Below, piece by piece: positions 5,339 to 48,139 of a stretch of DNA of 64,000 nt. The stretch's first letter is position 1; every line of letters starts with the position of its first letter. Source of the DNA: a virus. The notes under the pieces are model-generated. The model searched no databases. It had not been told where the DNA came from and saw only the letters and a list, made by a program, of their open reading frames with translations. The stretch covers positions 1-64,000 of IMG/VR virus record IMGVR_UViG_3300036851_000098. One strand, 5' to 3'. A program made the translations under genes and the position numbers.

Positions 5339-5364
5339 TTCGCGTATTTTTCATGTTGTATAAT
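5339..5364 (+). promoter_or_regulatory. TTCGCG-N14-TATAAT promoter 3
   Basis: TTCGCG and TATAAT 14 bases apart. No coding gene follows directly; the promoter leads into the structured RNA at about 5370. Confidence 0.8.
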
Positions 5365-5369
5365 GAAAG

Positions 5370-5459
5370 AAGTAGCTCTAAGCAATACGTTAAGTCGGAT
5401 TCGTACCCGAGAAATATTACGGTAAAAGTCCGTCATAGAGCAATGCTTCTATTTTTTTC
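5370..5459 (+). ncRNA. Compact structured RNA with two hairpins
   Basis: GCTCTA (5375-5380) pairs with TAGAGC (5436-5441). It encloses two hairpins, TCGG/CCGA (5395-5410) and ACGG/CCGT (5419-5433). AGAAG (5368-5372) and CTTCT (5446-5450) could extend the closing stem, although the first of these may lie at or before the start site. A T7 run ends it. No ribosome binding site or ORF lies within. It is a three-way-junction candidate small RNA. Family not recognised. Confidence 0.6.
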
Positions 5460-5480
5460 TCAACAACCAAAGGAACAGCT

Positions 5481-6635: not shown

Positions 6636-6665
6636 CTGTGAGACCCCAAACTAAGGAGAGTAGTA

Positions 6666-6899
6666 ATGCAGAGTTCGCAACACCCACTCACCAACTTCTA
6701 CAACAAGGTTAAGACTCACAGTCCCATTTTGGGAGTCTTGATCAGTGAAGACGTGGTTCTGCTCGCCTTGGGCGCTCTGACTGACGAGCATGAGCCTGTC
6801 CAAGAATCTGTAGACCGGCTACGTGAGATGACCAACATGATGCCCGAGGACATTAGGATCATCCGAGAGGACGCTCTCGCGAAGCTCGGATATCTATGA
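6666..6899 (+). CDS. Hypothetical protein
   Basis: 77 aa, preceded by the recurring GAGACCCCAAACTAAGGAG leader but without an obvious promoter, so it may depend on read-through. Soluble, helical, acidic. Its stop overlaps an in-frame ATG of the next gene (ATGA). Confidence 0.55.
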   Translation: MQSSQHPLTNFYNKVKTHSPILGVLISEDVVLLALGALTDEHEPVQESVDRLREMTNMMPEDIRIIREDALAKLGYL

Positions 6900-6925
6900 T
6901 CGACGGTCGACCGGACGGAGTAACC

Positions 6926-7399
6926 ATGATTGCCAGTTGGTGCGTTCCTTTCGTTCTCCGCGAGTCTCATACATTGAACGTTCTTCAAAGCCGTCTACAC
7001 GGTTTAGACCACTGGTTTCGTGTCTGGCAGAACGGACAGATGTTGGCAAACATGGAAATCGACGTAGATCTTGAAGTCCTTGCCCTGTACGCGTTATTTC
7101 ACGACTCGATGCGTATGAACGAAGGTTCAGATCCGAGTCATGGAATGCGCGGCTTCAGGTTGTGGGAACGTGTCAACCAGCGCCAAGAAGTCGAAGACCT
7201 TCTCAGCGAACGACAGCGAGAGTTATTTTTCGAGGTATGTACTCAACATAGTGATGGGCTTCGAAGTACTGATCCAACTATCGCCGCTTGCTGGGATGCC
7301 GATCGACTGGATCTCCATCGCAAAGGGATCTGGCCGGATGCTCGTTTCATGAGCACCCAAGCAGGACTAAGTCTTGTCATGACTCGGATTACCTCATAA
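6926..7399 (+). CDS. HD-domain phosphohydrolase
   Basis: About 157 aa. The order HGLDHWFRV, ALFHDS, CTQHSDG and CWDADRLDL supplies the H, HD, H and D ligands of the HD superfamily, metal-dependent phosphohydrolases often acting on nucleotides. I chose ATG 6926 (behind CGGAG) over ATG 6896, which overlaps the preceding stop and would add ten residues. Substrate is not predictable; dNTP or signal-nucleotide hydrolysis is possible. Confidence 0.75.
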   Translation: MIASWCVPFVLRESHTLNVLQSRLHGLDHWFRVWQNGQMLANMEIDVDLEVLALYALFHDSMRMNEGSDPSHGMRGFRLWERVNQRQEVEDLLSERQRELFFEVCTQHSDGLRSTDPTIAACWDADRLDLHRKGIWPDARFMSTQAGLSLVMTRITS

Positions 7400-7421: not shown

Positions 7422-7595
7422 ATGAGCGAAGACCAAGAGAAGCATGTGGGCAAGATCAGGCATGATCGAAACAATCAGAAGGATTCGGCGATCGCGATGA
7501 AGAAGAAGGGTCACTCGAATGCAGTCATTGCTGCGATTCTTGGCATCTCAGAAAGCACCGTTCAAGAGGTGCTCAAGCCTAAGAAGGATAAGTAG
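7422..7595 (+). CDS. Small helix-turn-helix protein
   Basis: 57 aa, basic; the second half (KKKGHSNAVIAAILGISE, then STVQEVLKP) is a resolvase-type HTH. It is similar to the HTH near the N-terminus of the RNA-polymerase-like protein at 45275 (DKGMGASAIARQMDLNESTV). Probably DNA binding. RBS GCAGGAG. Confidence 0.65.
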   Translation: MSEDQEKHVGKIRHDRNNQKDSAIAMKKKGHSNAVIAAILGISESTVQEVLKPKKDK

Positions 7596-7621
7596 TTCGC
7601 GAAAAATTCACGTCATAAAAT
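7596..7621 (+). promoter_or_regulatory. TTCGCG-N14-TAAAAT promoter 7
   Basis: Starts directly after the stop codon of the HTH gene. TTCGCG and TTCACG half-sites lie 11 bases apart, and TAAAAT is at 7616. It leads into a noncoding RNA with twin hairpins. Confidence 0.75.
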
Positions 7622-7627
7622 GAGAAG

Positions 7628-7733
7628 AACCCTATCTATGTGTTTATGATCTCACAGGCACTCATAAACTAAATAGCAAAGATAGGGGGACCATGATCCC
7701 ACAGGCACTCATGGTCTCTTCTTATTTTTTCTG
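7628..7733 (+). ncRNA. Twin-hairpin structured RNA with repeated loop
   Basis: Two hairpins carry an almost identical 12-base loop: GTTTATGA/TCATAAAC around TCTCACAGGCAC (7642-7669) and GACCATGA/TCATGGTC around TCCCACAGGCAC (7689-7716). CCCTATC (7630-7636) pairs with GATAGGG (7681-7687) and encloses the first hairpin. The second hairpin is followed by a T-rich tract, so it doubles as terminator. No ORF is present. The conserved loop with diverged but compensated stems is strong evidence for a functional RNA. Confidence 0.75.
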
Positions 7734-7756: not shown

Positions 7757-8077
7757 GTGATTCACGAGGAACGGATCCTACAGATTGATGTGGAGGTGAA
7801 AAAACTAAGAAGCAATATTCGTGAACTGTTGAAAGAACGGCGTAGTCTCGTACGATCGGAGTATACGGGATCAGCAAAAACCTGGAGAAACGAGATTATC
7901 ACAATTCTTGACTGCTATCCAGGAGCATCTCGACAGAACATCGTAGATGGACTAAGTTCTTATATTTCCTCAAAGATGCTTACAAACGTGCTTACCACGT
8001 TGCGGCGTCATGGGGAAATCGAGAATCGAGGAACAAAGAAAAATCCGCAGTGGTATATCAAAGAGACCCCAAACTAG
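7757..8077 (+). CDS. Winged-helix protein with coiled-coil N-terminus
   Basis: 106 aa, GTG start after AGGAGGACGAA. Residues 1-35 form a charged coiled coil. The rest has a winged-helix pattern: EIITILDCYPGASRQNIVDGL, then VLTTLRRHGEIENRG and a wing ending in WYIKE. Likely a DNA-binding regulator. The GAGACCCCAAATTAGGAGG leader precedes it. Confidence 0.6.
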   Translation: MIHEERILQIDVEVKKLRSNIRELLKERRSLVRSEYTGSAKTWRNEIITILDCYPGASRQNIVDGLSSYISSKMLTNVLTTLRRHGEIENRGTKKNPQWYIKETPN

Positions 8078-14952: not shown

Positions 14953-14980
14953 GGGAGGCCCTAACACAGCTTCTCTTTTT
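14953..14980 (+). terminator. Intrinsic terminator
   Basis: Imperfect hairpin GGGAGGCC/GCTTCTC around CTAACACA, followed by T5; overlaps the next promoter. Confidence 0.65.
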
Positions 14981-15004
14981 CGCGTGAAAATCACTCTCTT
15001 TAAT
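14979..15004 (+). promoter_or_regulatory. TTCGCG-N14-TTTAAT promoter 10
   Basis: TTCGCG starts in the T-tract of the previous terminator. TTTAAT at 14999 leads into a structured noncoding RNA. Confidence 0.65.
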
Positions 15005-15095
15005 AGAAGAATAGATAATTTCCGCGCTTCCTTTGGAAGCAGTCTACTGGTGGCGGAATTAAAAAGACTATTACCAGCATCTGCTCTTCTCTTTT
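15005..15095 (+). ncRNA. Pseudoknot-capable structured RNA
   Basis: GCTTCC-TTT-GGAAGC (15026-15040) is a perfect hairpin. TTCCGC (15020-15025) pairs with GCGGAA (15053-15058) around it. AGTCT (15041-15045) inside that loop can pair with AGACT (15065-15069) outside, or CTGGT (15047-15051) with ACCAG (15073-15077), giving pseudoknots. AGAAGA/TCTTCT could close the ends; a T5 tract ends the unit. No ORF. Confidence 0.6.
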
Positions 15096-44770: not shown

Positions 44771-45275
44771 TTCGTATCACTGGATCAACTACGACGAAGA
44801 AAAACTTAGGTTTCGCTATAAGACTCTTCGTGCGGCGCTCGAAGGAATAGAGCAGCATCGCTACGCAGCGATTTGTATCGCCGAAAGGATTGTCCAAGAT
44901 GATGAAAGAACAACCCTGGGACTGTACATCAATCAATGCATTCAATACAGAATGCACCCAGAAATTGTCCTGTTTTATTCTCCTAATGCATTCGGAACAG
45001 TTGACGCCATTGCGTATCGATATCGAGTGCTTAGGATCTCAGATCTCAAGACAGGAGCCACTCGAGTCTCAGAACATCAGCTGGAAGTATATGCAGCGTT
45101 TTTCTGTCTCGAGTACGAAATTAGTCCTTTCCACATGAGAGGAATTGAGCTTCGTATTTACAAAGACGGCAAAGTACAGGTGTACGATGCTGATCCCCAC
45201 TACATAAAGGGGCTCATGGATAAGATCGTTCGTTTCGACGGAATTCTCAACATGCTTCGAGAGGAGGTGTCGTAG
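44715..45275 (+). CDS. RecB/Cas4-like exonuclease with probable CTG start
   Basis: About 186 aa. The frame opens at a stop at 44712. CTG 44715, seven bases after GAGGAGGTG, is the first start and gives KHSHLEGQHAFLSPSSYHW, a conserved phage N-terminus that would be lost from ATG 44952. FGTVDAIAYR, RISDLKTGATRVSEHQLEVY provide the D, D-x-K and Q of the RecB/Cas4 nuclease core. Likely processes DNA ends for recombination. A programmed frameshift from the previous gene is a less likely alternative. Confidence 0.65.
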   Translation: MRFNKHSHLEGQHAFLSPSSYHWINYDEEKLRFRYKTLRAALEGIEQHRYAAICIAERIVQDDERTTLGLYINQCIQYRMHPEIVLFYSPNAFGTVDAIAYRYRVLRISDLKTGATRVSEHQLEVYAAFFCLEYEISPFHMRGIELRIYKDGKVQVYDADPHYIKGLMDKIVRFDGILNMLREEVS

Positions 45276-48139
45276 TGCGCGTTACTGAAGAAGACTACTT
45301 GATGCATTACGGCATCAAGCGTAAGTCAGGTCGGTATCCTTGGGGATCTGGTCAGAATCCTCTACAACGTTCAAAGACGTTCCTAGGAATAATCGAGCAA
45401 CACAAGAAAATCGACAAAATGACTGAGTCCGAGATTGCTAGGGCATACTCGGATAATGATCACAAACTCAGTGTCGCTGACATTAGAGCAATGAGGTCTA
45501 TTGCTGGTGCAGAAGTCAAGATGGATCAGATTCGTACTGCCCAACGTCTAAGAGATAAGGGTATGGGCGCGTCTGCGATTGCAAGGCAGATGGACCTAAA
45601 CGAGTCTACTGTCCGTTCGCTTCTGGAGCCAGGTAGGCAGGAGAAGTTGGACATTCTCATGAATACCGCCGACATGCTCAAGCGGCAGGTCGAAGAAAAG
45701 GGTATGATTGACGTCGGTTCAAACGTCAATCTAGATCTTCCGATTGGCGACAATCCTGCCACCCGAATCGGAATTAGTCCAGATAAGTTTGCTACTGCTC
45801 TTTCCATGCTCAAGGAAGAGGGCTACCAAGTTCATACTTTCAACGCCCCTCAGGTTGGAACTGGAGAGATGACCAAGTACAAGGTGCTGGTCAAGCCTGG
45901 GGTTACGCAGAAAGAAGCTTGGTCCAATCGTGACAACATTCGTCTGATCTCGGAAAAGACCGACGATCGTGGCAGAAATTTCACCGATTTTGGTATCCAG
46001 CCTCCGTTGAATGTCTCCTCCAAGCGAGTGGGCATCAACTATAAGGAGGATGGTGGTAGTGACGCGGACGGCGTGATCTATGTTCGTCCTGGTGTCCCTG
46101 ATATAACGCTTGGTAAATCTCGTTATGCTCAGGTTCGTATTGCGATTGATGGTTCACACTATCTCAAGGGTATGGCTGTCTACAAAGACAATCTACCCCC
46201 TGGCATGGATCTTCAGTTCAATACGAACAAGTCCAACACGGGCAATAAGCGTGACGCTATGAAACCCCTGAAGAGGGACCCTCAAACGGGTGAGGTCGAT
46301 AAGGATAACCCATTTGGTGCCGTCATCAAGAAGGATGGCCAGATCCTAGATAAGAATGGGAAAGTCAAGTCGGCGATGAATCTCATCAACGAAGAGGGTG
46401 ATTGGGATACATGGTCAAGAAACTTGTCCAGTCAGGTTCTCTCGAAGCAGAAGCCTGAACTAATTAAGACCCAATTGGATCTTACTCATGATCGGCGTAG
46501 AGCTGAGCTTGAAGAAATTCGCTCGCTCACTAACCCGCAGATCAAGAGAAAGCTTCTCGAAACTTTCGCTGAAGAGACTGATGCTGCAGCTGTGCATCTC
46601 AAAGCAGCAGCTATGCCTAATCAGGCTACTAAAGTCATTCTTCCGTCGAACAAAGTAAAGCCTAATGAGATCTTTGCTCCTACTTTCAGGGATGGAGACA
46701 AGGTTGCTCTTGTGCGATTCCCTCATGCGGGAACGTTCGAGATTCCAGAACTGACTGTTAACAACAAGTCACGTGAAGCAAAGGCTCTAGTTGGACTGAA
46801 CAAGGGTGGGACAGCAAGAGACGCTGTAGTCATTCACCCCAAGGTAGCAGAGAGACTATCTGGTGCTGACTTTGATGGCGACGCTGTCGTTGTCATTCCA
46901 AACAATCGTGGGCGGATTACCCATAAGCCCCCGTTGGAGGGACTTAAGGGATTTGATCCTCAAAGCGAATTTGCTCCCTATCATGGTATGAAGACCATTG
47001 ATGGAGGAACGTACAACGCTACTACAAAGAAGATCGAATACCCTAAGGACAAGGACGGTAACGAACGCAGTCCCAACAAGTCGAGAAAACAGCATGAGAT
47101 GGGTAACGTTACCAACCTAATCTCTGACATGACCATTCGTGGTGCTAACAACGACGAGATAGCTCGTGCAGTGAAGCACTCTATGGTGGTTATCGATTCT
47201 GAGAAGCATGTTCTCGACTTCAAGGCTTCGGAGAGAATCAACGGAATCACAGCTCTTAAGAAGAAGTATCAAGGCGTGCACCCTAAGACAGGGCAAGCAC
47301 GTGGTGCTTCTACGATCATTACTCGTGCTACTGCACAGACTCATCCTGTACAAAGGAAGGACGCATCAGCTGGTCCTGGCAGAACTAGGATCTCTAGTGG
47401 TACGGTTGACAATCGTACAGGTAAGAAGCTGTATGAACCTACGGGTAAGCGTAAGCGTGACGGTAGTCTAGCTACGTTTAAGTCTCAGAAGTTGGCTGAG
47501 ACAGATGATGCCTTTGAGTTGGTGTCAAAAGGTAGGGGCACTACGGAAGAACAGCTCTATGCTGAGCATTCTAATCGGCTTAAGGCTATGGCCAATGAGG
47601 TACGTAAAGAACTAATCCGTATCAAGCCCATCCCCTACTCGCCCTCAGCCAACAAGGTGTACAAGCATGAAGTGGATTCGCTTACAGCGAAATTGCGTAA
47701 GGCTGAAAAGAACGCCCCCCTCGAACGGCAGGCCCAGGCTGTAGCCAGGCGGATCGTTGCGGATCGTAAACGCGCAAACCCAGGGATGGAGAAGGACGAG
47801 GAGCGGAAGATCAAAGGTCAGGCGTTGACCGAAGCTCGACGTAGAACAGGAGCGGGTAAAGTACGCCTAGGTTCTGATGAATCCCCCATTACTGATCGTG
47901 AGTGGGAAGCTATTCAGAATGGTGCGATCTCGAATCACATGTTGGATAACATCTTGAAGAACTCTAACATAGACAAGATCCGTGAGCGCGCAACACCTAG
48001 AGAGAAGCCTGTGATGAGTAATGTCATGACAGCTAGGGCCAGGCAGATGATTGCGTCTGGGTACCCATTGTCGGTCATTGCTGAGCAACTGGACATTCCT
48101 GTGTCCACCCTTAAGTCTGGGCTTGAGGATGGGGGGTGA
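45275..48139 (+). CDS. RNA polymerase beta-prime-like protein with DFDGD motif
   Basis: 954 aa, GTG overlapping the previous stop, after GAGGAGG. The N-terminus contains LMHYGIKRKSGRYPWGSG (residues 9-26), a tag related to HYG…RWG motifs of phage head proteins. An HTH follows (DKGMGASAIARQMDLNESTV, about 90-115). VALVRFPHAGTFEIPELTV and VVIHPKVAERLSGADFDGDA (DFDGD at 532-536) align with the double-psi beta-barrel of RNAP beta-prime (R-x-P and HP…ADFDGD). Basic middle segments and a C-terminal HTH end it. This resembles single-chain YonO or crAss-like RNAPs. Transcription activity is inferred; the second barrel is not assigned. Confidence 0.65.
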   Translation: MRVTEEDYLMHYGIKRKSGRYPWGSGQNPLQRSKTFLGIIEQHKKIDKMTESEIARAYSDNDHKLSVADIRAMRSIAGAEVKMDQIRTAQRLRDKGMGASAIARQMDLNESTVRSLLEPGRQEKLDILMNTADMLKRQVEEKGMIDVGSNVNLDLPIGDNPATRIGISPDKFATALSMLKEEGYQVHTFNAPQVGTGEMTKYKVLVKPGVTQKEAWSNRDNIRLISEKTDDRGRNFTDFGIQPPLNVSSKRVGINYKEDGGSDADGVIYVRPGVPDITLGKSRYAQVRIAIDGSHYLKGMAVYKDNLPPGMDLQFNTNKSNTGNKRDAMKPLKRDPQTGEVDKDNPFGAVIKKDGQILDKNGKVKSAMNLINEEGDWDTWSRNLSSQVLSKQKPELIKTQLDLTHDRRRAELEEIRSLTNPQIKRKLLETFAEETDAAAVHLKAAAMPNQATKVILPSNKVKPNEIFAPTFRDGDKVALVRFPHAGTFEIPELTVNNKSREAKALVGLNKGGTARDAVVIHPKVAERLSGADFDGDAVVVIPNNRGRITHKPPLEGLKGFDPQSEFAPYHGMKTIDGGTYNATTKKIEYPKDKDGNERSPNKSRKQHEMGNVTNLISDMTIRGANNDEIARAVKHSMVVIDSEKHVLDFKASERINGITALKKKYQGVHPKTGQARGASTIITRATAQTHPVQRKDASAGPGRTRISSGTVDNRTGKKLYEPTGKRKRDGSLATFKSQKLAETDDAFELVSKGRGTTEEQLYAEHSNRLKAMANEVRKELIRIKPIPYSPSANKVYKHEVDSLTAKLRKAEKNAPLERQAQAVARRIVADRKRANPGMEKDEERKIKGQALTEARRRTGAGKVRLGSDESPITDREWEAIQNGAISNHMLDNILKNSNIDKIRERATPREKPVMSNVMTARARQMIASGYPLSVIAEQLDIPVSTLKSGLEDGG

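Follow-up and report, generated by a model that had tools for sequence, protein, structure and literature searches.

The window analysed here, a stretch of 64,000 nucleotides, comes from a virus record of 79,866 bases; in database comparison, the best neighbours of this record are phages of Gordonia, Rhodococcus, and Arthrobacter. Its 4.4 to 15 kb region is made up of small genes, between which lie terminator-like hairpins and a recurrent promoter-like site. The segment at 7596-7730, which contains no open reading frame of 40 or more amino acids, is flanked on the plus strand by two genes. Directly upstream, at 7422-7595, a 57-aa helix-turn-helix (HTH) protein is encoded (HTH_23, E=1.7e-5), which resembles the N-terminal HTH of the phage's RNA polymerase and is a candidate partner of the RNA described below. 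Downstream, at 7757-8077, a gene behind a GAGACCCCAAATTAGGAGGA leader encodes a winged-helix-like protein of 106 aa. A neighbouring 55-aa protein of the window phage has a homologue beside a related element in another phage (L219), which indicates that the two gene neighbourhoods are related. A 167-aa HD-domain protein (6896-7399) is also encoded in two related records, G003 and G011. The terminator hairpins between genes (5145, 5302, 5977, 6287, 6607, and 15318 in the window, and others in G003 and G011) carry a loop like CCTAACACGG on differing stems. A leader motif, GAGACCCCAAACTAGGAGGA, occurs at 6640, 7733, and 8063, ahead of genes that have no promoter of their own, and resembles the transcript start behind the promoter (GAGACCC).

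Anatomy of the twin-hairpin element

The element, like its flanking genes, is read on the plus strand, and contains two hairpins of 28 nt each, at 7642-7669 and 7689-7716, that share a 20-nt apex, ATGATCYCACAGGCACTCAT. The original prediction had pointed to two 12-base loops, and both are present, TCTCACAGGCAC at 7650-7661 and TCCCACAGGCAC at 7697-7708, on the 8-bp stems GTTTATGA/TCATAAAC and GACCATGA/TCATGGTC, respectively. It had further described the stems as different but fully paired. All pairs are indeed intact, but only the outer 4 bp differ, with three pairs altered on both sides and none broken, because the shared 20-nt block makes the inner four pairs of both hairpins identical. The loop of the first hairpin is predicted to consist of a U bulge, 2 bp, and CACA, followed by CAC. 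The helix proposed to enclose it was recovered in the sequence and in the predicted folds, with its 5' arm CCCTATCT at 7630-7637 and its 3' arm AGATAGGG at 7680-7687. An outer helix, GAGAAGA/TCTTCTT (7622-7628/7717-7723), had been overlooked; it closes the whole element just before TTTTTT and, in the predicted folds, joins the putative transcript start to the U-run. Its 3' arm and the T-run (7717-7730) constitute a probable intrinsic terminator. The position of the T-run is common to relatives, and the same pairing of 5' and 3' ends is found in many promoter-linked RNA units.

The twin-hairpin observation was confirmed as real and not due to chance. The element folds with a z-score of -4.3, and none of 200 dinucleotide shuffles folded as well; direct repeats of at least 17 nt arose in 0 of 2000 shuffles, compared with the 20 nt observed. 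The 64 kb contain 28 hairpins with a perfect 8-bp stem, and the twin hairpins are the only pair among them to share a 12-mer. A shuffle control for covariation between them, which is weak with only two sequences, was reached in 63 of 500 cases.

Promoter-like site and YonO-like polymerase

Immediately ahead of the closing helix, at 7596-7621, lies TTCGCG-AAAAATT-CA-CGTCA-TAAAAT, followed by GAGA, a site that recurs in the genome and in relatives and presumably serves as a promoter. The consensus built from 263 instances in the window phage and related phages reads TTCGCG-N-A/T-rich(6)-CA-N5-TATAAT-[GA][AG][GA]A; the search pattern itself demanded TTCGCG, C, and most of TATAAT, so that independent evidence comes from the remaining positions only. 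The usual spacer of 16-18 nt is absent from this site, and a standard sigma-70 promoter scan did not list 7596. In many of the RNAs downstream, the paired 5' end extends to the first purine after TATAAT, which suggests that transcription may start there; for the element, the start would probably be the first base of the 7622-7628 arm or a few bases later. Non-coding units behind the promoter, defined by the lack of a start codon behind a ribosome site downstream of it, include tRNA-like units as well as structured RNAs with a terminal T-run. The tRNA-like units behind it suggest that this promoter yields stable RNAs.

Several such units were observed in their own right. Single tRNA-like genes, each with its own TTCGCG promoter, are present at L325, L348, L350, L268, and L148, and their acceptor stem is lengthened by the terminator stem. 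Window positions 5339-5460 hold a promoter-RNA-terminator unit with a multibranched fold and no ORF, for which no relatives were found. Another promoter-driven structured RNA at 14979-15095 has AAAAGACTATTACCAG and a CTGGT/ACCAG pairing in common with an RNA of another phage (L222:10648).

The window phage encodes a YonO-like single-chain RNA polymerase at 45275-48139 on the plus strand, a 954-aa protein with a DFDGD motif that matches phrog_4291 over its whole length and is a candidate reader of the TTCGCG promoters. Polymerase matches were obtained in 49 of 64 records, all of them picked by promoter or by DNA polymerase; these 49 include G003, with a weak HTH match only, and G057, with an edge fragment. 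Among 50 unrelated viral records used as a control, two gave matches, both weak and confined to the HTH. The link between promoter and polymerase is an association and not proof, because the set includes many fragmentary records and 14 of the 64 had been selected for a related DNA polymerase. The promoter sequence of YonO was left undetermined in a 2017 study (PMC5467207). The TTCGCG-CA-TATAAT-GAGA site is a concrete candidate promoter for the YonO-like enzyme family.

Repeated-tip RNAs in related phages

Repeated apices with a score of at least 9 were detected in 5 of 42 non-coding promoter-linked segments (the window, L230, L229, L252, and L219), compared with a mean of 0.0 in ten shuffles per segment. 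Further loci of this kind are L303, G003 (L347), and L275, and L431 came to light when the L252 tip served as a scan pattern. Repeated apices on diverged stems occur at no fewer than nine loci besides the window. The features that recur in many related phages, Gordonia and Rhodococcus isolates included, are two or three identical tips, compensated stems, the TTCGCG-CA-TATAAT promoter, and the closing helix, and almost all of these phages encode a YonO-like polymerase. L275 comprises three tandem RNAs with three, three, and two tip copies. The tips of L252, L431, and L275 are AUUGC or AUUGA pentaloops; across seven AUUGM-type hairpins from three phage contigs, 84% of cells are paired, and the score for pairing and covariation exceeded all 500 shuffles. 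The window's own tip differs from the AUUGM shape of these relatives. Record G115 (a 33-kb phage fragment; L275, L480, and L492) contains many repeated-tip RNAs with several different tips, along with three phrog_27818 genes.

The gene that usually adjoins these RNAs encodes a small phrog_27818-type protein, membrane-like in an N-terminal stretch and NUMOD/HTH-like at its C-terminus. It was identified by family match at L275, L252, L431, and G003 and by inspecting translations at L303, L229, and L219; L230 has no adjoining gene of this type. The family is present in 13 of 67 records, and searching beside its members brought up additional RNAs of the repeated-tip kind in Rhodococcus phage ReqiPepy6, Gordonia phage Avazak, G009, G054, G115, and G025. 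Such a neighbour is usual in the class and not known to define it. In the window phage genome (G000), no phrog_27818 match was detectable, and the 57-aa HTH gene adjoins the RNA instead.

A homologous triple-hairpin RNA in the Gordonia phages Avazak, Artorias, Perkunas, and Rickmore retains its scaffold and most of its outer stems, and the tip, the same in all three hairpins of a phage, is CCCGUUAUACGGA in Avazak, ACCUUUAUGAGGA in Artorias, and CGCCGUUUGGGUA in Rickmore. In the alignment, 97.3% of 112 pair cells are standard and nine pairs are changed on both sides, a result reached by 0 of 500 shuffles. Since the tip copies change in concert in these isolates, they probably share one role. 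In five Gordonia phages, the linked proteins are near-constant in the stretch read, and most of the few differing residues fall in the putative recognition helix, where Artorias and Perkunas, with a common loop core, both have KISRN. The apparent co-variation between protein and tip is seen in five phages, too few sequences for a test.

With a promoter just upstream, a repeated apex on compensated stems, a closing helix with a T-run, and a YonO-like polymerase in the genome, the window element most likely belongs to an apparently undescribed group of RNAs in phages that have their own RNA polymerase. Comparison with relatives lends good support to the proposal that it is a discrete RNA with its own TTCGCG promoter and terminator. 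The original prediction had also read a constant loop on diverging stems as a binding site. That argument is supported for the class by the nine or more other loci and the concerted change of the Gordonia apices, but conservation of this particular loop was not supported: the 20-mer had no exact match in the viral or genome contigs searched, and looser two-copy loop patterns returned only non-hairpin, apparently coding repeats. Likewise, a nucleotide search of phages with the locus gave no match, and a search for relatives via the downstream protein found none. Rfam 15 returned no family at gathering score in the whole window or in seven loci of the class, and no meaningful hit even when E was allowed to rise to 1. 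Scans for twin hairpins that did not depend on the promoter lacked specificity; the reversed-sequence control of the first was invalid because reversal preserves pairing, and the second showed little contrast with control contigs. Mimicry of tRNA or of CRISPR repeats by the loops was considered and dropped after inspection by eye only. The repeated-tip stretches in the Gordonia and Rhodococcus records carry no RNA annotation.

Possible functions and known systems

On a slight balance of probability, we read the locus as a phage gene for a discrete non-coding RNA that displays the same recognition hairpin twice, with an HTH protein as the probable partner. This reading builds on what the computation shows: the anatomy, the compensated stems, the recurrence in relatives, the linkage to a gene, and the concerted tip changes in isolates. 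A transcript of about 110 nt would be made from the phage-type promoter at 7596-7621, presumably read by the phage polymerase, and would end at 7730, its two ends pairing with each other as the terminator stem. Within this closed ring, two equivalent hairpins would show the same tip, the stems acting as scaffold and the tip as the functional part, so that the two copies may form a multivalent ligand for one partner. That partner would most likely be the small HTH protein encoded beside the RNA, in relatives the membrane-anchored phrog_27818 protein and in the window phage possibly the 57-aa HTH protein, and the effect might be that of a scaffold, a decoy, or a membrane tether. Counting against this reading are the absence of the window loop from all other sequences searched, the undetected phrog_27818 gene in the window phage, the small sample of five phages behind the protein-tip co-variation, and a window tip unlike the AUUGM shape of some relatives. 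A broader proposal, which we put forward tentatively and rate as less likely than not, is a new RNA-protein module in which two or three copies of a recognition hairpin, with tips exchanged in concert between phages, would be recognised by a linked and often membrane-anchored HTH protein through its recognition helix, as an RNA "password" for each phage made from a dedicated YonO-like polymerase promoter; the window would then be a two-hairpin member with its own tip.

The repeated loops could instead pair with host or phage RNA, the two copies raising the capacity of an antisense or sponge RNA, a role that we judge unlikely but worth weighing. Known antisense RNAs present their loops in a similar way, and a changing RNA target would also suit the concerted change of tips. 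However, the longest exact match elsewhere in the phage genome is 9 nt on either strand, complementary sites are not in excess, loop matches with two mismatches are at chance level in that genome, and in relatives a large part of the changing tip is base-paired. It is less probable still that the element is a cis-acting 5' leader or attenuator of the winged-helix gene at 7757-8077, in which a ligand on the loops would open the closing-helix terminator. Promoter, structure, terminator, and RBS do stand in line, and in G003 a two-hairpin RNA likewise precedes a homologue of this gene. Yet the repeated-loop RNAs of relatives sit before or after quite different genes, several of them in tandem, and the GAGACCCC leader is also found behind plain terminators.

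The two-hairpin RNA comes straight after a phage promoter, and terminator-like hairpins are frequent in this region, which would also suit an antiterminator like HK022 put, a nascent twin hairpin that modifies the polymerase so that it passes later terminators. We consider this very improbable: a terminator-like helix and U-run close the element itself, a genome has few elements of this kind but many terminators, and repeated identical tips are not known as a feature of put. Scarcely any weight falls on the view that the element is just a terminator region in which a local duplication arose, without a separate function. In G003 and G011, this gene region does contain a plain terminator flanked by the same TTTTTTCTGAGACC, but the compensated stems, shuffle tests, recurrence, and concerted evolution speak against it. 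Antisense, cis-leader, and put-like roles are rated less likely than a pair of sites bound by a single partner, for which an HTH protein is the most likely candidate. If the two-binding-site reading is true, a class of RNA genes has gone unnoticed in a large group of actinophages, of which laboratory collections include many; the concerted evolution of the tips would point to a specific partner, and the RNA-protein code could be tested in plaque-forming Gordonia phages.

Among known systems, sponge RNAs of the CsrB/RsmZ type offer the same loop motif on several hairpins to one RNA-binding protein. The window loops, TCYCACAGGCAC, lack the GGA motif of CsrA, and the phage RNAs differ in having only two or three hairpins, a tip that varies by phage, and linked proteins of the HTH type. 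The TwoAYGGAY RNA likewise has two hairpins with the same loop; the window loops are other than AYGGAY and have no Rfam match. TwoAYGGAY is listed as a candidate motif for human gut, gamma-proteobacteria, and Clostridiales (PMC2864571). In some relatives the hairpin has one bulge on the 5' side, 2-3 bp, and a small loop, and so resembles a protein-binding hairpin of the MS2 operator type, but the likeness is only one of shape, with no coat protein involved, and the window's own tip differs. HK022 put also places two hairpins close behind a phage promoter, whereas the phage RNAs have a closing terminator helix, identical repeated tips, and, in relatives, tandem copies. SPbeta, which like the window phage encodes a YonO-type polymerase, has a YonO start site upstream of an unannotated non-coding RNA, and its late genes form one operon (PMC5467207); the window phage, unlike SPbeta, has many short units with a clear candidate promoter.
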